Below, piece by piece: positions 2,059 to 43,272 of a DNA stretch of 64,000 nt. A program made the translations under genes and the position numbers. Numbering within the stretch: the first letter of the stretch is position 1; each line of letters starts with the position of its first letter. This DNA is from Natronorubrum texcoconense (GTDB lineage: Archaea > Halobacteriota > Halobacteria > Halobacteriales > Natrialbaceae): contig NZ_FNFE01000008.1 of assembly GCF_900100335.1 (NCBI RefSeq), forward strand, positions 1 through 64,000, in the 5' to 3' direction. The notes below the pieces were generated by a model. The model had not been told where the DNA came from and ran no database searches. It saw only the letters and a program-made list of their open reading frames with translations.

Positions 2059-3849
2059 TTAGTCGTCGCCCTGGACGTTGTACATCCGGAACTCGTCGTT
2101 CGAGATTACTTTGTTCGTACTCGAGTCCTTCTCGAGGGCCTCGAGTGCGGCTTCGCTGTGGTGGAGCTCCTGGTAGACCTCGAGTTCGCGGGTGGTGTCG
2201 AACTCCGTCACGATGAAGTTGTAGTCCACCCCTCCATATGCGCCGCTAAAGTTGCCCTCTTCGAATTCATCGGGCTCGACGGTGCCGCTGGCAGTCGTTG
2301 CTGCGCTGAGACTCTCCTGTCCCTCGACGCCGTTGATGCCGTGGTCGTATCGGTACGGGTCGTACCCCAGCCCGACGAGGGGGACGTCCTCGTCCCCGTG
2401 CTCCATAGTGGTCTCGTAGCCGTTGAACTGCTGGTCGGTGATGTGCTGACCGGGGTTGTAGATGATCGGTGAGGCGAACACCGTCATCAGCCCGAGCACG
2501 AGACAGGCACCGAGCAAGAGCGCTGCGACGGCTGTCCCACCTGGGACCGTGATCACGCCGGAGAGCGCATCGATGGCGCGTGCGATCCCGACTCCCGCCA
2601 GGATCGTCAGGATGATCGCGATGAACCCGATCTGGCGGAACGCCATCGTCGGCGTGCCGACGAAGTAGATGAAGAACATCCCCGTCAGCGGGATCAGCGC
2701 GATCGCGAAGTAGTTGACGAACGACTTCGTCTCGGGATCGAGTCTGGTCCGGCCGAGCCACACCAGCAGGATGAACAGCCCCACGGCGAGCGAGATCAGT
2801 GCGAGGTCGAGGAACATCGTCACGAACAGTTCGCCGAGGCTCCCGCCGACTTCGCCGAGCGAGGCTTCGGCCTGGTCGACTTCGGCACTCCCGCCCACGT
2901 CTTCTGCGAAGACGCCGCTGACGAGCCCTTCGACGGCTCCTCTGAACCGTGCGTTACTCGCCGCCCAGACGGTGAAGATGACGCCGAGAACGGTGGTGTG
3001 GGCGTACGTCGTCGGATGATCGAGCATCGGATGGTCGTCGTACCGTCGTCGGGCGAGATACTGAACGCCGGTGACCGCAGCGATGAGGACGACGACGTTG
3101 ATCATCTGTTGGGGGTGCATGAACAGCAGCCCGATACCGGTGACGTAGATGAGCAGGCTGAAGGGCGAGAGCCCGAACGGCAGCCGCTCGATCGTCGCGC
3201 GCCGACGGAGGTACGCGAGGAACGCGAAGATGACGACGGGCACCAGGAAGAGCGCGTTCGAGTTCGTGTGGATACCCATGTGCGTCGCGATGTTATTGAT
3301 GGGAAGCACCATCCAGGAGACGATCGCGGCGACGCCGATCGCCATTCCGTTACCGCCCATCTCTCGGACGACGAGCGGTACGAACAGCACGAACGGGAGG
3401 AAGGCGATCGCAACGACGAACAGCATTCCGCGCTCGATCGGAACGCCGCCGACGTAGTGAAAGACCGTCGAGATCGCGTGAAACCCGGGATAGAACAGTT
3501 CGTGTGGGGCCAGTGACCCGTCGATGATGTCCCGGGTCCAACCGAGGTGGGTGAGCGCGTCGCCCTTTCCGGAGAATCGGTAGTTCCTGATCACCGGAAG
3601 GCCCACAATCGCCGTCACCGCCGTTCCGCCGAGTGCGATTCCGTAGCCCTGTTCGCGACCACGGCAGGTGAGCGCCGTGCTGGCGGCGATCGCGAGCGCG
3701 AACGCGAACGCGATCCACGTAACCGTCGGCGTCCCGGTATAGATCGACGCTTCGTAGCTGGTTGCGGGGTTGGCTCTCGCGACGAGAATTGCGATCGCAA
3801 TCGCGAGGAAGCCCACGGCGAACGTGACGTTGAGTGTCGACCGTTTCAT
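2059..3849 (-). CDS. Large multi-pass membrane protein, GT-C glycosyltransferase-like
   Basis: 596 residues. About a dozen hydrophobic segments start near residue 9 and continue to about 480. They are followed by a soluble acidic tail of roughly 110 residues with repeated aromatic and Asn patches. The first large loop contains KGDALTHLGW and a PGFH motif, resembling the acidic first loop of GT-C enzymes that use polyprenyl-phosphate sugars, but no diagnostic DXD or WWDXG is visible, so this assignment is an inference. The surrounding genes (PP-loop, ATP-grasp, deacetylase, glycosyltransferases) point to cell-surface glycan work such as transfer, polymerisation or flipping. An ATAACAAA box and a 15-codon leader ORF lie directly upstream, and the leader stop codon overlaps this ATG. 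Confidence 0.8.
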   Translation of the reverse strand: MKRSTLNVTFAVGFLAIAIAILVARANPATSYEASIYTGTPTVTWIAFAFALAIAASTALTCRGREQGYGIALGGTAVTAIVGLPVIRNYRFSGKGDALTHLGWTRDIIDGSLAPHELFYPGFHAISTVFHYVGGVPIERGMLFVVAIAFLPFVLFVPLVVREMGGNGMAIGVAAIVSWMVLPINNIATHMGIHTNSNALFLVPVVIFAFLAYLRRRATIERLPFGLSPFSLLIYVTGIGLLFMHPQQMINVVVLIAAVTGVQYLARRRYDDHPMLDHPTTYAHTTVLGVIFTVWAASNARFRGAVEGLVSGVFAEDVGGSAEVDQAEASLGEVGGSLGELFVTMFLDLALISLAVGLFILLVWLGRTRLDPETKSFVNYFAIALIPLTGMFFIYFVGTPTMAFRQIGFIAIILTILAGVGIARAIDALSGVITVPGGTAVAALLLGACLVLGLMTVFASPIIYNPGQHITDQQFNGYETTMEHGDEDVPLVGLGYDPYRYDHGINGVEGQESLSAATTASGTVEPDEFEEGNFSGAYGGVDYNFIVTEFDTTRELEVYQELHHSEAALEALEKDSSTNKVISNDEFRMYNVQGDD

Positions 3850-7525: not shown

Positions 7526-8746
7526 TTATGACGTGTCTACATCGAGGCCCGAGAGCGTCCACTCGTCCCTCGTCGTCTCCTCGAATTCGGTTTCCCGATC
7601 GAGGTCACGAGCGAGGAGCGTCAGCGCAGTCGGCCGCTCCAACGTCGAGAGCGGAAACCGTGTGTCGGGATAGAACCGGTACCGGATCGGCGTCGGCAGC
7701 GTCTCCCCGAACGCGGTGACGTAGTTTCGATCCGGACAATCGGCCAGTGCTGCCGCTAGTAGCTGATTGATCGCGTCCTGCGCTGACGTAATCTCTCGTG
7801 GAAGGCTCTCGACGATCCGGAGGTGGTCGTCGACGCGAGAACAGACCAGCGCCGCGATCGGCGTTTCGCCGTCGCGCGTCGCAACGTAGGTCGTGTAGCT
7901 CCGCGCGGGATTCTCGAGGCGCCACCGGTAGAACTCGGCGGTTCGATTCGTGTGAATGCCGTCGGGAATCGACCGCCGGTATACCGACTCGAGAACCTCC
8001 GCGGGCGGCGTCTCGAACCGGATCGCGGCGATCTCCGAATCGGCCTGCGTCACCAGCTTATCGCCCGCGAGCTGCGAGCTCGTGATGACGTCGGAGAGGA
8101 CCTCGGCCACGCCGTCGTCCGAACCGTCGTTCTCGCCGATGAGGTCGCCGGTGTCGTCCTCGGGCGGAAGATCGCGATACACCCATCCGTCCGATCCATC
8201 GCCGCTCGCCGCTGTCTCGTCGCTCGCCTCCGACTCGTCTCCGTCGCCGTCGTCTACCACCTTCTTTACGCTCTCGACTGGGTCTTGTGGCCGGTAGTAC
8301 GTCGGGATCGTTCCGATCTCTTTCCAGCCGTGTTTGAGGTTCCCCGGCTTGGCGCTCTCGTTGGGGAAGTTAAAGCACAGAGACGGTGGACCGTCGGCGT
8401 ATCGCTCGAGCGCGTACTCGTTCATGCGGCTGAACAGGCCCCGGTCCCGGTGTTCGGGGTGGACCATCGTATCGCAGGGCTGGAACGCGATCGGCCGGTC
8501 GTCGCCGACGCGCATCTCGAGGGCGAAGAAGGCCCGACAGCCGACGAGTTCGCCGCCGGCGTCGGCGACGACGATCGGTACGTGGTCGGCGTACGGATTC
8601 TCTGCGTACTTCCAGCGGAACCAGTCCGCGCCGCGCTCTTTCTCGAAGACGGTCTCGTACAGCGACAACAGCGCGTCGCGGTCGCTGGATTCGAACGAGC
8701 GGACCGTATACGACGGTTGCGTCGCCGGTGATGTGGATTCTCCCAT
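7526..8746 (-). CDS. GNAT-family N-acetyltransferase with extended C-terminal region
   Basis: 406 residues from the ATG at 8746; the open frame extends to 8845 but that part is Arg-rich. The first 130 residues carry a GNAT fold: YTVRSFESSDRDALLSLY, then AGGELVGCRAFF, and the acetyl-CoA loop region MVHPEHRDRGLFSRMNEYA, in which HRDRGLF stands for the Q/RxxGxG/A motif. A low-complexity Asp/Ser insert (about residues 155-200) separates it from a C-terminal half that looks like a second, degenerate acetyltransferase lobe (RWRLENPARSY, YVATRDGETP). The gene lies upstream of the ATP-grasp gene. It likely acetylates an amino sugar or related metabolite. Confidence 0.8.
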   Translation of the reverse strand: MGESTSPATQPSYTVRSFESSDRDALLSLYETVFEKERGADWFRWKYAENPYADHVPIVVADAGGELVGCRAFFALEMRVGDDRPIAFQPCDTMVHPEHRDRGLFSRMNEYALERYADGPPSLCFNFPNESAKPGNLKHGWKEIGTIPTYYRPQDPVESVKKVVDDGDGDESEASDETAASGDGSDGWVYRDLPPEDDTGDLIGENDGSDDGVAEVLSDVITSSQLAGDKLVTQADSEIAAIRFETPPAEVLESVYRRSIPDGIHTNRTAEFYRWRLENPARSYTTYVATRDGETPIAALVCSRVDDHLRIVESLPREITSAQDAINQLLAAALADCPDRNYVTAFGETLPTPIRYRFYPDTRFPLSTLERPTALTLLARDLDRETEFEETTRDEWTLSGLDVDTS

Positions 8747-8976
8747 AGCGAAGTCTCGTGCTGCCAGCCTGATGGCGGTCGGTCGTTCGGTTCGCGTCGA
8801 TGGCGTTCGTTCCCTCCGGGAATCAAACGGACCCGGGCCGAACACGGAGCGTCGGCCGAGAGACGGTTCGGTACAGCATCGACTACGGACGAGTGCTGAT
8901 ACGCTCTCACTCGAGTATCGCTATAGCCGAAAACGCAACTTGAGTGACTAGTCGAGACCGATCGTATGCCCCCCGA

Positions 8977-10569
8977 TCACTCCATGTAGCCGAGGCCCTT
9001 CAGCCGATCCTCGACCTCTCCGAAGTCGTCGTCGACCTCCTCGTCGGTGCCGCCCTGTGAGACGCCCGTCCGTTCGACCTTCGTCGATGCGGGAGTCGTC
9101 TCCTCGTCGAACGCGTCGAAGAGGACGCGACCGTCTGCGTTCTTCGGGACCGGTTTGCCGATGCCGTGAAGCAGTGTTGGCGCGATGTCGACGACGCGCG
9201 CCCCGCGAAGCTCCGCCCCGGCGTCGATCGACGGTCCGCGACAGAGGACGATCCCCTCCTTGCGGTGGCTCGCGTCGTAGTTGCCGGTGTCGCCGGTCGG
9301 CTCGTCGGTGAGCGCGTTTCGGGCCTCGTAGACGCCCCGTCCGTTGACGATCAGGTCGGGCGAGTCGTCGTCGGTCGGGAACAGTTCGTCGCCGTCGAAC
9401 ACCTTGAGCATCGGCTCGCCGTCGTCGTCGGTCACCGACTCAAAGAGGTCGGTGAGTTCGTCTTTGATCGCCGGCACCTGGCTCGGATCGACGACCCCGC
9501 TGTCGAAGCGTTCGGTGTCGTTGACGTACAGGCAGCCGGCGCCGTGGACGAACGCGACGGTCTTCTCGTAGTCGACGTCGTAGAGGGCGTGATCGCCCGG
9601 GATCTGCTCGGCAACGGTGTCGACGATCGACCGGGGCAGCGTCGAGACGATCTTCTCCTCTGAGATGCCGACCCGCTCGAGCGCGTCCGTGATCCGGTCC
9701 CGGGAGATGCCGAGACTCGAGAGCGCGCCGCGGGTCCCCTCGTCTTCCTCTCGGAAGAGGTAGCCGTCCTGTTCGAGGATGTGGTTGACGTAAACCAGTT
9801 CCTCGATCGGCCCGAAGCCGTGGTCGGAGACGGTGTAGAGGTCGGCGTCGTGCTCGTCCGTGTAGTCCATCACCTCGCCGAGGATGTCGTCGAGTTTCTT
9901 GTAGTGATCCAGCAGCCGGTCCATATCCCAGATGAGGTGCTGGAATCGGTCGGGCGCGGTGAAGACGAAAAAGAACAGCCCCCAGTCGTCGCCGGCTTTC
10001 TCCATCTGGAGCTGCATCAGTTCGCGCCGGTTCTCGAGCATGTCGTCGACCGCGACCTCGAACTCGTCGAGTCGGTCCGCGTAGTCGGGGTAATCCAGGC
10101 TGATCTCGTAGTCGGGGATTCGGGACTCGATCTCGTCTTTTAGCTCGGGCGGGTGCGTGTACTCCTTCTCGGTCGATGGGGTCATCATGCCGGTGACCAT
10201 CGTCCCGTCGATGGCTTTGGCCGGATACGTCATCGGGACGTTGCCGACGTGGGCTGGCGAGAGCTGCTCCCAGAGCGTCGGTTGTTGCATATCGTAGCTG
10301 GTGTACATCTCGTGCGTATAGTTCGACGAGAGGTTCTGGAAGCCGTAGAGACCGTGCTTGTCGGGCCAGACGCCCGTCGCGATGGTCGGCCACGCCAGCG
10401 GCGTCGTCGCCGGCTGGGTGCTCTCGAGGGTGCCGGAGGCGCCCTCTTCGCGCATCCGGGCGAAGTTCGGGAGCTCGCCCTCGTCGCTCCATTGTTCGAT
10501 GAGTCTCCACGGTACGCCGTCGAATCCGAGCACGAATGCGCGCTCGGCTGTCTGGGAAGACCTGCTCAT
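8977..10569 (-). CDS. Alkaline phosphatase superfamily protein (type I phosphodiesterase/sulfatase-like)
   Basis: 530 residues. The start of the fold is LGFDGVPW (metal-binding Asp17). It is followed by TTPLAWPTIATG, whose Thr (T55 or T56) is the expected nucleophile, and later YTVSDHGFGP provides the DxH metal ligands. There is no signal peptide, so it probably acts in the cytoplasm or on the inner face of the membrane. The C-terminus ends in EDRLKGLGYME, closely matching the tail of the second family member at 34190-35815. Enzymes of this type hydrolyse phosphodiester, phosphonate or sulfate esters; in a glycan locus the substrate may be a lipid- or nucleotide-linked sugar. An ATAACAAA box lies 59 bp upstream of the ATG. 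Confidence 0.85.
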   Translation of the reverse strand: MSRSSQTAERAFVLGFDGVPWRLIEQWSDEGELPNFARMREEGASGTLESTQPATTPLAWPTIATGVWPDKHGLYGFQNLSSNYTHEMYTSYDMQQPTLWEQLSPAHVGNVPMTYPAKAIDGTMVTGMMTPSTEKEYTHPPELKDEIESRIPDYEISLDYPDYADRLDEFEVAVDDMLENRRELMQLQMEKAGDDWGLFFFVFTAPDRFQHLIWDMDRLLDHYKKLDDILGEVMDYTDEHDADLYTVSDHGFGPIEELVYVNHILEQDGYLFREEDEGTRGALSSLGISRDRITDALERVGISEEKIVSTLPRSIVDTVAEQIPGDHALYDVDYEKTVAFVHGAGCLYVNDTERFDSGVVDPSQVPAIKDELTDLFESVTDDDGEPMLKVFDGDELFPTDDDSPDLIVNGRGVYEARNALTDEPTGDTGNYDASHRKEGIVLCRGPSIDAGAELRGARVVDIAPTLLHGIGKPVPKNADGRVLFDAFDEETTPASTKVERTGVSQGGTDEEVDDDFGEVEDRLKGLGYME

Positions 10570-37203: not shown

Positions 37204-38937
37204 CTACTCCGCGCTCGCCATCGCGTCCAGCTTCGATCGGACGTCGTCGCTCAGCGTGTACGTCCGTGCGACCGGGCGCTCGACCACACCCTCGGTCAGC
37301 AGCTCCGAGCACAGCCCCTGTACCGCGACGGTCGACCGACCGACCGCGTCGGCGATGGCGGCCGACTCGAGCGGTCCGTCTCGAGCCAGGACGACGAGTG
37401 CGCGCCGGGCCGTCGACGCCGTACACTGGGACTGTTCAGCCGCGCGCTCGAGACGGTCGTCGATCCACTCGCCTTCGAAGACCGCCTCCGGCGGTTTCGG
37501 CTCCGGCGCGGTGGTGATCTCCTCGGACTCGTCGGCGTCGGACTCGGTCTGACTCGGCCACTCCACCGACGTAAACCCGAACTCGACGTCGTCGCCGCCA
37601 GCCTGGAGGATCTCGGTCTCGTCGGTCGACTCCGCGTTCGACTCTTCTACTTCTTCCGTCTCCACTGCCGTCTCGAGATCTCGCACGCGGTCGCGCAACC
37701 GCTCGTTTTCCTCGCGCAGTCGGTCCACCGTCTCCGTTCGTGACGACAGTTTTCCCTCGAGCGTTTCGATCCGATTCGTCCGCTCGTCGAGTTTGGCTTG
37801 CAACTCGTCGCGTTCGTCCTCGAGGTCGTCCCGCTCGGTCTCGAGATCGACGATCTCGTCGTGGAGCCGACGCAGTTCCTCGTCGTCACCGCCGCCGAGT
37901 TTCGTCTGGAGGGTCTCCTTTCGCGTCAGCGCATCGGCCATCTGCTTGGCCGCGTTCGAGACGTCCCGCGCCGATTCGAGTTCGTCCTCTAAGGTTTCGA
38001 TACGTTTCTCTTTCTTCTCGAGTTCGTTCTCGAGCTCGAGGATGCGACTCTCCTCGCGGTCCTTTCGCTCCGAAATATCCTGGAGGTCGCCGACGAGGGC
38101 GTCGGAGACGGATTTGAGTTCGGGTCGTTCGAAGTCGTCGAGTCCGGGCGTCGCGCCCGCGTCGAACGTGCGCTTGCGTCGGAACTGTACCTTGCGAACG
38201 TCGACGTCCATCCAGTCGGTCTGGACGAACCCCTGACCATCGTTCAGCTCCGAGACGAGCTCCGAGTACTCGGTGTCGATGATCCGCCCGACGACGTTCG
38301 TGTCGTTGTCCCAGGTCAGTCGGTGCCAGACGAGCCAGTTCGCCTGCGTGATGAAGTCCTTCTTGACGTCGGCCGGGCGCTGGCTGATTCCCAGAATTCC
38401 CAGCCCGTGTTTGCGCCCGCGCTTGCTGATCTTGATCAGCAACCGGCCCGTCTCGCCCATTCCGCCGCCTTCCGGAATGTACTCGTGGACCTCCTCGACG
38501 ACGAGCAGGAACGGCTTCTTCAACTTCTTCTCTTTGACGAACAGCTGTCGGGCGATCTTCCGAAGCAACTCGTCGGCCACCTCCTCGTCGAGGTAGCCCG
38601 AGACGTCGAGAATGACTGGGACGTTCTCCTCGAGTGCGAGCGAGGCCATCTGTTCTGCGTGTTCCGGCCCGATCTGGATGTCGCACTCCTCGTCGGCCCC
38701 GGCGTGGAGCATCTCGTACTCCTCTTTGAGCCCGTAGTACTCGCCGTCCGTGTCGACGATCAGGAGGGGGAAGCCGGACTCGAGTAACTCCTCGGCGATC
38801 ACCGAGGCCGTGTTCGACTTGCCGGATCCCGACTTCCCGGTTACGAACCCGCGGCCGGTCAGCAGTTCGACGACGGGGAGGTACAGATCTGTCCCGTCGT
38901 CGCGTTCGCCGACCAGAATCTCGCGTTGATCGCTCAC
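37204..38937 (-). CDS. HerA-like (DUF87) ATPase with coiled coil and C-terminal winged helix
   Basis: 577 residues starting at GTG 38937; further upstream the frame runs into the repeat array and reads YTL-RTV-YTF-YTV-type repeats, which is not protein. Residues 28-41 (GRGFVTGKSGSGKS) are Walker A, and PFLLVVEEVHEYIP is Walker B. KISKRGRKHGLGILGISQRPADVKK is the HerA/FtsK-like sensor region. A long coiled coil spans about 275-440. A winged helix lies at about 495-577 (STARRALVVLARDG, then TVAVQGLCSELLTEGVVERP). The protein likely forms a DNA-translocating ring. It is divergent from parA across the repeat array, so a role in segregation is proposed. Confidence 0.87.
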   Translation of the reverse strand: MSDQREILVGERDDGTDLYLPVVELLTGRGFVTGKSGSGKSNTASVIAEELLESGFPLLIVDTDGEYYGLKEEYEMLHAGADEECDIQIGPEHAEQMASLALEENVPVILDVSGYLDEEVADELLRKIARQLFVKEKKLKKPFLLVVEEVHEYIPEGGGMGETGRLLIKISKRGRKHGLGILGISQRPADVKKDFITQANWLVWHRLTWDNDTNVVGRIIDTEYSELVSELNDGQGFVQTDWMDVDVRKVQFRRKRTFDAGATPGLDDFERPELKSVSDALVGDLQDISERKDREESRILELENELEKKEKRIETLEDELESARDVSNAAKQMADALTRKETLQTKLGGGDDEELRRLHDEIVDLETERDDLEDERDELQAKLDERTNRIETLEGKLSSRTETVDRLREENERLRDRVRDLETAVETEEVEESNAESTDETEILQAGGDDVEFGFTSVEWPSQTESDADESEEITTAPEPKPPEAVFEGEWIDDRLERAAEQSQCTASTARRALVVLARDGPLESAAIADAVGRSTVAVQGLCSELLTEGVVERPVARTYTLSDDVRSKLDAMASAE

Positions 38938-39997
38938 CGCCCCACCACCTCGTTCGCGCGCGACGTGTTCATACGTCGTACAGTTCGAACACGACACCTT
39001 GAATATTGGCCTCGACTCGTGTCTCGCCGTTCGATACGTCGCGAGGGTTCTCGATCCCTCGCGGAGTTCAGGCGTGTAGACTGTGTAGAATGTGTAAACG
39101 GTTCGGAGCGTGTAGGGTGTACCCACTCTTCCACTGTCTCCACAGTCTCCACATTCTGTCCGACCCTCGCTTCGCTACCCCGTCCACTGGCGTTGCGGTA
39201 GCGGCCACTCTAGCAGTTCGGGGGAGTGCGCTTCTGACGCCCCCGCTATCGGGTAACACAGTGTACAATTTGTAAACATCGCACACTGTGTGGACCAGTC
39301 GTCGGTCGTTCCGTTCCTCCGGCCGGTGCTCGCTGACTCTCGACGACTGACTCCGAATTCTGGACTGTTGGAACCGTTCGCACGGTGTAAGAGGTCTAAA
39401 CTGCTCAGACTGTGTAATTTCTTCTCTCTCGGCAGATCACACGAAACCCGGGACGATTCGCTACTACAGTGTACACATCCTAAACAGTGTACACCGTGCT
39501 AGATTCACACATCAGGTACAATGTCTTGACGGTTCGAACCGTGTGAACTGTTTCCGCTACTGTTAAGTCATGCCACTCGGATGATCGACGTGACACTCGC
39601 CGTGTCCGATCGAACCGATAACCACTGAACATCGCACGATGTCTACACTGTGTAACGTTGTGGACGGTACAGGACTCGAGAACCGACCGGACGACCGGAG
39701 GTCAGAGCCTCGACTCGACCGTCTGGAACGCTCACACTGTGTGGACATTCCAAACGGTTTGGACAGTCCAAGACGTTCGGGATGGTCGAACCCCGACGGG
39801 TCGCTGCCGCCATCACGGTCGCGTTCCGATTCCGTGTCGATTCGGGCGCTCGCTCGAGCGTCCAACTACCGTGAACCGTCTGCAAATTTCACACTGTGTG
39901 CACGGTGCAGACTGTTCGGACCTCGAAAACGGCCTTCGACGTTCGGACGGTCTCGACCGTCGAAACGGTCGACACGGCGACGGAGGTGTACCCACGA
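38938..39997. repeat. Array of 9-bp GTNNNNAC repeats, candidate centromere
   Basis: The 1.06 kb between the HerA-like gene and parA holds seven runs of 9-bp units with consensus GTNNNNACN: 39074-39162, 39252-39296, 39358-39420, 39460-39558, 39641-39658, 39712-39792 and 39878-39994. I count 24 units with all four consensus bases, for example at 39074, 39092, 39119, 39136, 39145, 39367, 39376, 39394, 39469, 39487, 39523, 39532, 39541, 39739, 39757, 39896, 39905, 39914, 39941, 39950, 39959 and 39968. The units keep 9-bp phase inside each run. An outlying unit is at 38983. The last run ends next to the parA start codon. No gene lies in it. Confidence 0.88.
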
Positions 39998-40828
39998 ATG
40001 ACGAAAACCCCACGCGCCGTCAGCGTCGCCCTCCAGAAAGGCGGCGTCGGCAAGACGACCCTCGCGATCAACCTCGCCGAACGACTCTCCAACCGAGACA
40101 ACGACGTCCTGCTCGTCGATCTGGACCAGCAGGGCAACGCCACCGAAGGCGTCGGTCTGAGTGATGCCTACTCGAGCGACGTCCACATCGGTGACGTCCT
40201 CGAGGACGGGACCGACACGACGCTCGAGGACGTGATCCACTCGACCAGTTCGTTCGACGTCCTTCCCGCCCACGAGGATCTCGATAGCGTCGAGAACAGC
40301 ATCCGTAGCGCGACCTTCGGCGAGCTCTGGATCAGAAACGAGATCGTCGATCCAGTGCTCGGCGACGAGTACGACTACGTCGTCGTCGACTCGCCGCCGA
40401 ACCTCGGCCCGCTCGCCGACGCCTCACTCATCTCGACACAGAACGTCATCGTTCCGCTGCGGATGAGCGAACCCAGCGTGAGCGGATTCGAGCGGATGTA
40501 CACCCAGCAGATCGGCCCGATCCGCAAGGAGATCGACCTCGACATCCTCGCGATCGTCCCCAACTCTCTGGCCGGCGACAACGAGGAAAAGCGGATCATC
40601 GGCGACTTGGAGGAGTCCCAGTTCGGCGACTACCTCCCGGCGTTCGCCCGTTCGGCCCACTTCGACGATTCGGACTCGCCCGGGCCGGGGATTCGAGAAC
40701 GGATCGCCTTCAAGCGAGCGTGGCGCGAGGGCGTCCCGCTCGCCGAGTACGACCCCGAAAACGACATGCTGGACCGGCTGGATGAACTGGCTGCAGTCGT
40801 CGAGCGCGGAGGTGTTACCGATGCCTGA
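39998..40828 (+). CDS. parA: ParA-type partition ATPase
   Basis: 276 residues from the ATG at 39998. Upstream the frame enters the repeats and reads TVx triplets. LQKGGVGKTTLAINLAERL is the deviant Walker A with the signature lysine (Lys14) and catalytic-site Lys19. LLVDLDQQGNATEGV is motif A', and DYVVVDSPPNLGPLADAS the Walker B region. IVPLRMSEPSVSGFERM and the C-terminal part fit the Soj/ParA branch. It lacks an N-terminal HTH, as in type Ib/chromosomal ParA. It overlaps the RHH partner gene by 8 bp. The repeat array abuts its start codon, so its promoter is probably repressed by the partner bound there. Confidence 0.93.
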   Translation: MTKTPRAVSVALQKGGVGKTTLAINLAERLSNRDNDVLLVDLDQQGNATEGVGLSDAYSSDVHIGDVLEDGTDTTLEDVIHSTSSFDVLPAHEDLDSVENSIRSATFGELWIRNEIVDPVLGDEYDYVVVDSPPNLGPLADASLISTQNVIVPLRMSEPSVSGFERMYTQQIGPIRKEIDLDILAIVPNSLAGDNEEKRIIGDLEESQFGDYLPAFARSAHFDDSDSPGPGIRERIAFKRAWREGVPLAEYDPENDMLDRLDELAAVVERGGVTDA

Positions 40829-41309
40829 GGACAACCGGTTCGCGGGACTGAGCGATGCCGTCGAGGACGAGGAGCCGGAGAACGAGGAATCGGAGGACGA
40901 GCAGTCAGCAGACCCGGCTCTCGATGCCGAATCGTCGACCACCGACGACTCGAGTGAGGTCGACGAACCGACTACCGAAGTAGCGTACGAGTCAGTCGAG
41001 GCGGACGCCGAAGCAGGCGAAGATACCGAGCAGAGCGAGACGGGACCAGATTCCGACGACTCGGCCGACGGTGACGCCGACGATCCGACCGCGTTCCCCT
41101 TCGATGCGACCGAGAAGAAGACGGTGTACGTCCGGCCCGAAACGCTCGACGGACTCGAGGACGCCCGCGCGCTCGTGGACGCACAGCTGCGGACCGAACA
41201 CGACGTCCGCGACTTGACCGGCCGGGAGTTCTACGACGCCGCGTTTCGACTCGCGGCCGCCGATACGGACGGGTTGATCGACGAGATTCTCGAGGCCCGC
41301 GAGGAGTAG
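40821..41309 (+). CDS. ParB-like centromere-binding partner with ribbon-helix-helix C-terminus
   Basis: 162 residues from the ATG at 40821, overlapping parA. The first 95 residues are a disordered, extremely acidic tail of Glu, Asp and Ser. The C-terminal 65 have the ribbon-helix-helix order: a strand TVYVRPETL (101-109), a helix GLEDARALVDAQLR, and a second helix LTGREFYDAAFRLAAAD. RHH dimers bind tandem short operator boxes, as with MetJ, omega and ParG, which matches the 9-bp palindromic units upstream. The acidic tail could contact ParA. The ParB role is inferred from position, fold pattern and the array. Confidence 0.75.
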   Translation: MPEDNRFAGLSDAVEDEEPENEESEDEQSADPALDAESSTTDDSSEVDEPTTEVAYESVEADAEAGEDTEQSETGPDSDDSADGDADDPTAFPFDATEKKTVYVRPETLDGLEDARALVDAQLRTEHDVRDLTGREFYDAAFRLAAADTDGLIDEILEAREE

Positions 41310-41328: not shown

Positions 41329-43272
41329 TTACTCGTCGTCAGCCTCGGATTCGTCGTTCCCATCGCTCGGTTCGACCGTCTGCTCGCGAATCGTCATCCC
41401 CTTGCGGCCGAGATGCTGGAGCTGTTTGCGGGCGAAATCTTCCTCGCGCGTGCCGCGAGTGGCGAGCACGTAGACGAGCGCCCCGCCGGCGGGCCGCATC
41501 GTTCGGCCCGCGCGCTGGGTGCCCTGCCGGCGAGAGCCGCCAAGCCCAGAGGCGACGATGGCGAGGTCCGCAGTGGGGAGGTCGATCCCTTCGTCGCCAA
41601 CGCGGGAGATGACCAGCAAGTCACGTTCGTTCCGCCGGAACTCCTCGAGCAGCCGTCGTCGCTCGTGGTGGGGCGTCTCGCCGCTGAGGAAGGGGACGTC
41701 CAGCGCGGCGGCGATGTCGCGTCCTTGCTCCAAGTAGTCCACGAAGACGAGCGCCTTCGCGTCGGGGTGAGCCGAGAGCAGGTAGCGGACGTCGTCGACT
41801 TTTCCCCGGTTTTTCGCGGCGATTCGGTAGCGCTCTTGGCCGTCCGCGGAGGCGTAGGCGTTTCGCTGTTCCTCGTCGCCCCACGGGACGTATCGAATCT
41901 CGAGTTCGGGTTCGGCGACGAAGCCGGCCTCGAACAGCGCCTCCCAGTCGGTGCCGATGGGTGGCCCGACGAGCGTGAAAATTTCGGTTTGACGGTCGTC
42001 TTCCCGGATGGGGCTGGCGCTGAGCCCCAGTCGATGACGGGACTGCAGGTGGGTACTCCGTCGGTAGACGTCCGAGGGGACGTGCTGGCACTCGTCGAAC
42101 ACCACGAGTCCCCACTCGCGGTCGTCGAACAGCGAGCGGTGGCGGTCCATTCCCGCGATCTGGTAGGTCGCGATCGTTACCGGCCGGACTTCCTTGCGAC
42201 CCCCGTGGTACTGGCCGATCTGGTGGGGCTCGAGCGAGGTGTACTCCTCGATCGCGTCGGCCCACTGTCTCGCCAGATCCCGACTCGGGACGAGCACGAG
42301 CGTTTCGCCGCCCACGTGGGCCATCGCGCCCATCGCGGCGATGGTCTTTCCGCTCCCCGGCGGACCGACGAAGACGCCTTCGCCGCCCTCCGCGAAGCGA
42401 TCGACCCACGTCCGCTGGTAGTCGCGCAGCGAAATCTCGAGATCGATCGGTAGGTCCTCGCCGGACTCGAGGTCACGATGGTCCTGCACCGGGTAGCCGG
42501 CCTCGTAGAGAAGCCGCTTGATGGCGGCTTCCGACCCCTCGCGAACCCAGTCTTCGGTGTCTGAAATCGGCGCGTGGACGTGTTCCTCGTCGAGTTTCTG
42601 GCGGGCGACGTTGCCCATGATCTCCGGACTCTTCGCCTCGAGGACGGTGTACCCTTCCTCGTGAGTCGTCAGCCTGAATTGGTGGGCGCGATCCCACTGG
42701 CTGTGGACCCAGTCCTCGAGGGCCTCCGAGCGCTGGCCGAGCGCCTGTCGCATCGTTCGCGCGAGGGTGTCGAACGAATCGTGGGGGGCCTGCCAGACGT
42801 CCTCCGGCCTGACGACGTATCGGTACCCCTGCTCGCCGTTGCCGTCCGCGAGGTGGGCGAACTGGGAGAGCTGTGCGCGGGTAAACTGGTCCGGTCGATC
42901 GACGACGATTTCGCGACGCTTCGGGAAGACGACGACCCGCTCGCGATCGGTGAGATCCTCGAGTTCGCTCGGATACCAAACGATGGGATCTGTCTCAACG
43001 GCGAGGCGTTCGACGTCGCCGCGATCGGCGAGATTCGTGAGCGCCTCGCGTGCAGCTTCGGTCGGGATTTCGAGCGTCCGAGCGACGGCTGCAGCGGTGA
43101 GGACGGGCCGACCCGCTTCCTGCGATGCATCGTGGAACTCCGCGAGCGTGAACTGGTCGTCATCCTGCTCGTGTTCGGTCTCTTCGACGGCCTCGTCATC
43201 TGCTGGGGCCGCTGGAGCGTCGGGTTGGTGGCGTTCGCCATCAGTCGCCTCCGAAGCACGTTCGTCGGTCAC
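41329..43272 (-). CDS. XPB/Rad25-like DNA helicase
   Basis: 647 residues. An acidic N-terminus and a winged-helix-like region (about 40-105) precede a helicase core. Motif I is FVGPPGSGKTIA, motif II VVFDECQHVPSD, motif III GLSASPIRED, and motif VI QGTQRAGRTMRPAGG. The order and the ISLRDYQRTWVDRF Q-motif fit archaeal XPB. The enzyme would unwind DNA in repair or transcription-coupled processes with 3'-5' polarity. It converges on the parA-RHH operon with a gap of 19 bp. Its genetic tie to that operon is not shown by sequence alone. Confidence 0.92.
   Translation of the reverse strand: MTDERASEATDGERHQPDAPAAPADDEAVEETEHEQDDDQFTLAEFHDASQEAGRPVLTAAAVARTLEIPTEAAREALTNLADRGDVERLAVETDPIVWYPSELEDLTDRERVVVFPKRREIVVDRPDQFTRAQLSQFAHLADGNGEQGYRYVVRPEDVWQAPHDSFDTLARTMRQALGQRSEALEDWVHSQWDRAHQFRLTTHEEGYTVLEAKSPEIMGNVARQKLDEEHVHAPISDTEDWVREGSEAAIKRLLYEAGYPVQDHRDLESGEDLPIDLEISLRDYQRTWVDRFAEGGEGVFVGPPGSGKTIAAMGAMAHVGGETLVLVPSRDLARQWADAIEEYTSLEPHQIGQYHGGRKEVRPVTIATYQIAGMDRHRSLFDDREWGLVVFDECQHVPSDVYRRSTHLQSRHRLGLSASPIREDDRQTEIFTLVGPPIGTDWEALFEAGFVAEPELEIRYVPWGDEEQRNAYASADGQERYRIAAKNRGKVDDVRYLLSAHPDAKALVFVDYLEQGRDIAAALDVPFLSGETPHHERRRLLEEFRRNERDLLVISRVGDEGIDLPTADLAIVASGLGGSRRQGTQRAGRTMRPAGGALVYVLATRGTREEDFARKQLQHLGRKGMTIREQTVEPSDGNDESEADDE

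Follow-up and report, generated by a model that had tools for sequence, protein, structure and literature searches.

A 1-kb array of 9-bp palindromic repeats upstream of parA as a candidate centromere of haloarchaeal plasmids

In the partition systems ParFGH (TP228) and delta-omega (pSM19035), RHH dimers read short DNA units, spaced at 8 bp in the former and at 7 bp in the latter, and operator and centromere overlap. The closest known design to the one described here is that of the Leifsonia plasmid pCXC100 (type Ib), where Huang et al. in 2011 reportedly observed cooperative binding of RHH ParB dimers to nine uninterrupted 9-nt repeats. The pCXC100 centromere is composed of direct repeats only (PMC5016525). 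In known type I systems the RHH protein occupies a static array of centromeric repeats, and RHH-ParB systems are reported to be enriched on plasmids below 50 kb (PMC13245405). Among archaeal systems, SegB contains an RHH (PMC9178275) and recognises palindromes of 13 bp at dispersed chromosomal sites (PMC12284271), while plasmid pNOB8 is partitioned by three genes, AspA-ParB-ParA, with a DNA-spreading protein and one 23-bp palindrome (PMC5120986). The nature of the centromeres on archaeal chromosomes and plasmids was considered an open question in a review (PMC5120986), and searches of open-access papers turned up no account of such a site for haloarchaeal partition.

The window analysed here, a stretch of 64,000 bases, belongs to a Natronorubrum contig of 208,817 bases and contains a two-gene parA operon preceded by an intergenic array of short repeats, with the following arrangement:

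37204–38937, minus strand: gene of a HerA-like (DUF87) ATPase with a long coiled coil (Pfam DUF87, E 1.6e-12), with a GTG start at 38937 read off the sequence
38938–39997, no strand: intergenic region with the 9-bp array, candidate plasmid centromere (from unit counts, 9-bp periodicity and presence upstream of parA in relatives)
39074–39152, no strand: array runs 1–2, ACNGT cores at 39080, 39098, 39133 and 39142
39364–39413, no strand: array run 3, cores at 39364, 39373, 39382 and 39409
39466–39551, no strand: array runs 4–5, cores at 39466, 39484, 39493, 39529, 39538 and 39547
39718–39767, no strand: array run 6, cores at 39718, 39736, 39754 and 39763
39893–39975, no strand: array runs 7–8, cores at 39893, 39902, 39911, 39947, 39956 and 39965, with a probable promoter overlap
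39998–40828, plus strand: parA, Walker-type ParA ATPase of 276 residues with KGGVGKTT (Pfam AAA_31, E 1e-35; CbiA, E 3.6e-16)
40821–41309, plus strand: partner gene overlapping parA, candidate centromere-binding protein of 162 residues
41085–41306, plus strand: C-terminal domain of the partner (AlphaFold2 model, mean pLDDT 94.0)
41329–43272, convergent to the parA-partner pair: XPB-like helicase, the next gene after the operon

The locus shows three features of a type I RHH system, namely a small ParA in which no N-terminal HTH domain was found, a small partner gene behind parA and an array of short repeats upstream, and by analogy it would most likely work like one. It shares with pCXC100 the small ParA, the small partner gene behind it and the tandem direct repeats upstream of parA. 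In contrast to pCXC100, it is archaeal, its palindromic and degenerate units form interrupted runs over about 1 kb, its partner combines an acidic linker with a domain that matches no recognised family, and several unit words occur across one family. The plasmids concerned are also larger (100–900 kb) than those on which RHH-ParB systems are enriched, and the spacing is 9 bp instead of the 8 and 7 bp of ParFGH and delta-omega. An earlier note on this DNA knew of no described chromosomal archaeal partition site of this design with 9-bp spacing; going by the reported repeats of pCXC100, a spacing of 9 bp would already be known from bacterial RHH centromeres, and for archaea no description was found. 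SegAB of Sulfolobales resembles the locus in pairing a ParA relative with an archaeal partner, but its sites are scattered, whereas here a single dense array is placed on a plasmid. The likeness to pNOB8 would lie in archaeal plasmid partition by a DNA-spreading protein, with two genes and a repeat array here against three genes and a 23-bp palindrome there.

Counting of the units showed that the array of 9-bp repeats proposed in the earlier note is real, with counts and 9-bp phase far above both shuffles and window rate. The unit as first written, GTNNNNAC, starts 26 times in 38983–39997 against 4.7 expected at the rate of the 64-kb window and 9.2 ± 3.0 in Markov shuffles of the array region (maximum 20 in 2000 shuffles), so that the claimed excess stands and the count of 24 is corrected. 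The form GTNNNNACNGT is found 16 times in the array against 0.8 in shuffles (shuffle maximum 6), and ACNGT 32 times against 8.8 in shuffles and 5.7 expected at the window rate. The distances between GT-GT pairs in the array peak at 9, 18, 27, 36 and 45, and the two runs named at the outset (39523/39532/39541 and 39941/39950/39959/39968) advance in exact 9-bp steps. Four or more in-phase units follow one another in four runs of the array and in two elsewhere in the window, against a mean of 0.02 such runs in region shuffles. Three exact consecutive units are present at only seven places of the 4.64-Mb genome, four of them in the array and one elsewhere on the same contig, and the ACNGT form likewise gives seven places with four in the array; in-phase runs are therefore not equally dense elsewhere. 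In a contrast of multiples of 9 against the remaining multiples of 3, the array region supplied the six highest-scoring tiles (800 bases each) of the window. The units are clustered in about eight runs with gaps between them, and the kilobase is not tiled throughout. The last run (39941–39975) leaves about 23 bp to the start of parA and would therefore lie over the likely parA promoter; scans for sigma-70 promoters and terminators and a search of Rfam returned nothing relevant.

The pool of 26 orthologous arrays gave a better description of the unit. The palindromic 9-bp repeat of the earlier note was retained and is best written as ACNGTNNNN, with the consensus ACNGTGTAC, which is palindromic about its N and also about the spacer; each unit consists of an ACNGT core and a 4-bp spacer. 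Successive cores in the pool are separated by 9 bp (263 cases), 18 bp (149), 27 bp (63) or 36 bp (36), and the 9-bp phase is detectable past 100 bp. Between the members of two close species pairs, differences are found at 6 of 180 sites for the four core positions and at 29 of 224 for the spacer positions (p 0.0006); two further pairs, which share members with the first two, point in the same direction below significance. Indels of 9 bp are in excess between close pairs, the only ones from which indel statistics were taken because the alignment of distant arrays is unreliable. The smaller divergence of the cores together with the excess of 9-bp indels therefore indicates a fast turnover of the sequence with retention of the pattern.

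The replicon carrying the array is not a chromosome. The contig of the window is a 209-kb element with three orc1/cdc6 genes, and orthologues of its parA are found on plasmids of 100–500 kb in Natronorubrum, Haloterrigena, Haloferax and others. Those at least 68% identical are hosted by plasmids of Haloterrigena (pHTUR04), Halosolutus, Halostagnicola, Haloferax (pHME505), Salinigranum and Salinibaculum, and contigs with this parA correspond to plasmids already named in Natronorubrum daqingense, N. bangense and N. aibiense. Each of the ten genomes available for the genus has the gene, mostly on contigs of 155–245 kb. What remains of the original proposal is thus a centromere-like site that is linked to the parA-partner pair and kept in relatives, without the label chromosomal.

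Conservation of the array was assessed upstream of the parA genes of related genomes, and it was present in every close relative examined. In the nine other species of the genus (9/9) parA is 91–97% identical and is preceded by array units, with about 100 bp upstream of parA covered in one of them. A motif-free test for period 9 took the 5-letter word most often in 9-bp phase within up to 1 kb upstream of parA and compared it with 68 control tiles of the window (maximum 8.7). Among Natrialbaceae orthologues, 26 had sufficient DNA upstream; every one of them scored above all control tiles, and in 25 of these 26 loci the best word was AC.GT. Since the array is kept in relatives and concentrated at this spot, the proposal survived the two observations named beforehand as speaking against it, absence from close relatives and equal density elsewhere. 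The Haloferax orthologues have a looser form of the array (AC.GT, ATTGTA or ACAGT), the signal of Salinigranum is weak, and pNMAG01 of Natrialba magadii carries a broken parA-like stretch and no array.

Other haloarchaeal parA-partner loci often have 9-bp arrays too, built on other words (CAATAGGTA, CTATTCNNN, ACCTNAGGT and AATGTAGAT). The genome of the window carries a further ParA-partner pair at 225202–226086 of a 398-kb contig, accompanied by a 9-bp array with the unit AATAGGNAC, and in the group related to this paralogue 20 of 29 loci exceed the strictest control. Among more distant ParA loci only 12 of 42 do so; many display no clear array and some none, and the rule is therefore not universal. 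Sorted by ParA group, the best words are AC.GT; AATAG or ACCTA (consensus CAATAGGTA); CTATTC, found in Halobacterium pHS2 and relatives; ACCTNAGGT; and AATGTAGAT. A scan of genome contigs was dominated by the Walker motif and returned mostly bacterial ParA. In Haloterrigena turkmenica three plasmids represent three ParA groups: pHTUR04 has a strong AC.GT array, pHTUR03 a CTATT array (score 11.6) and pHTUR02 a weaker CTA.T signal (score 6.6, under the strictest control). The window-type ParA is single-copy in all 27 family genomes having it (27/27), which fits incompatibility, although duplicates would be few by chance too.

The product of parA has its KGGVGKTT motif near the N-terminus and AAA_31/CbiA as its only Pfam domains, with no N-terminal HTH domain found by Pfam; the nearest NCBIfam family is ParA_partition (E 9e-21), under the family cut-off. 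Relatives of the partner sit behind parA in the loci read. The partner starts with the motif NRFAGL (NPFDDL in other groups), followed by a variable acidic linker and a conserved C-terminal domain of about 70 residues, in which the alignments show invariant F, Y, R-E, A and R residues. No family was assigned to it by Pfam or NCBIfam, and a ParB/Spo0J domain, the mark of HTH-type ParB/parS (CTPase) systems, was absent in both scans; the search of PHROGs with the window's partner domain gave no match. In the AlphaFold2 model of the domain, built with 57 sequences, an extended segment (KKTVYVR) is followed by helices of 22, 14 and 13 residues. The RHH monomer has the same order, a strand and then helices, and its strand pairs only in the dimer; the modelled layout would fit this order, though the first helix is long. 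Foldseek gave no significant match of the domain model to the PDB. A second fold comparison with the PDB listed eight entries, two of them RHH-like, both at values below any safe level: PcfF, with Z 3.0, rmsd 2.6 and 42 aligned residues, and a TCP domain, with Z 2.7, rmsd 4.2 and 46 aligned. The full-length model was poor and without a fold match; against PDB sequences, the full-length profile retrieved nothing and the domain profile insignificant matches only. The extended segment varies with the unit-word group (KKTVYVR, QKPFYAR, QRPFYAR, QHAIYGR, MHGFYVR), as would be expected of a DNA-reading strand, a correspondence that with about five groups is suggestive only.

Taking these results together with the architecture of the locus, we consider it quite probable that the array serves as centromere to a plasmid of about 200 kb with type I, ParA-driven partition, its 9-bp units being coated by the partner. 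Judging from locus anatomy and from known type I systems, the partner, probably as a dimer, would recognise one palindromic 9-bp unit (ACNGT and the 4-bp spacer), and dimers packed side by side on in-phase units would build an ordered complex, a filament extending over about 1 kb. This complex could contact ParA, perhaps through the conserved N-terminal NRFAGL peptide of the partner, and ParA would then move or anchor the plasmid copies, while the run nearest parA (39941–39975) may also serve to repress the parA operon. Other haloarchaeal plasmids would rely on this machinery but on other unit words, and with a different word on each plasmid coexisting replicons would be distinguishable; incompatibility may accordingly follow the word. 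Several points count against this explanation: the partner belongs to no recognised DNA-binding family, the fold search of the PDB gave no significance, 30 of the 42 more distant ParA loci stay below the strictest control of the period-9 test, haloarchaea are polyploid and their plasmids may or may not need active partition, and a short perfect array elsewhere on the same contig is kept also where the window-type ParA is missing. A broader and rather doubtful version would have haloarchaeal replicons share one centromere system, in which an archaea-specific domain other than a classical RHH polymerises on 9-bp units and the word, equivalent to the incompatibility group, sorts the megaplasmids of one cell.

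It is improbable that the array is only an extended operator with no role as a centromere, at which parA and the HerA-like gene opposite would both be repressed, be it by the partner or by some other regulator. It lies between divergent genes, its last run overlaps the likely parA promoter, and a short array of an ACNGT-type unit is found upstream of an unrelated regulator gene elsewhere; but a length of about 1 kb and a number of cores above 30 go far beyond the needs of an operator, the array upstream of parA is retained in Haloferax despite a different neighbour gene, and known RHH systems combine autoregulation with centromere function. Iterons of a replication origin are a very unlikely alternative reading, brought up by Haloferax plasmids in which orc1/cdc6 is placed 0.6–1.8 kb from the partner gene. 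In the contig of the window, however, the orc1/cdc6 genes (at 119, 147 and 162 kb) are far from parA (at 40 kb), the unit word tracks the ParA/partner group, and 9-bp palindromic units are unlike ORB elements, which are longer.

Still less credible is a loading site for the HerA-like ATPase, with parA being incidental. In those Natrialbaceae loci that were read, the HerA-like gene adjoins or neighbours the array. It is absent, however, in Haloferax, which has array and parA, and in Salinigranum, and arrays are present in other ParA groups too. A compositional artefact or codon periodicity, which the GC-rich DNA and a period that is a multiple of 3 could suggest, was refuted and retains a practically negligible probability: the region is non-coding, codon periodicity is discounted because the baseline of the contrast was the other multiples of 3, and shuffles and genome-wide counts exclude chance.

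With the plasmid centromere as the preferred reading, sister plasmid families share one design with different words, and archaeal centromeres are therefore directly testable. The arrays can be detected from sequence alone and point to the protein to purify, and some are on plasmids of species that can be handled in the laboratory, namely pHME505 of Haloferax mediterranei (parA locus at 338,428–339,252 of the record) and pHS2 of Halobacterium salinarum. With several unit words in one protein family, nature provides the data from which a DNA-recognition code might be read, and the words could account for which megaplasmids can coexist in one cell.

Outside the window, at 151738–151760 of the same contig, a short array stands by itself upstream of a PAS/GAF-type regulator gene and contains the perfect palindrome ACAGTGTACACCGTGTACACTGT. 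Two other genomes, of which one is without the window-type ParA, have it at the corresponding position; it may be a relic or may act as a secondary or a regulatory site.

In the virus PhiCh1, the gene behind the viral ParA (locus record 2758–3156) looks RHH-like by eye (NVNMYLPEDLVEEL) and may encode a centromere-binding partner. Comparison of its profile with that of the haloarchaeal partner gave an E of 0.002 but a probability of 13%, which was not taken as proof, and no 9-bp array was found upstream of the PhiCh1 parA. As to gene neighbours, the partition locus of several Natrialbaceae plasmids, but not that of Haloferax, has the HerA-like ATPase and the XPB-like helicase on its flanks, and in Natronorubrum bangense the locus lies beside rdfA (rod-determining factor) and a gene for an archaea-specific SMC-related protein (locus record 8135–9825).
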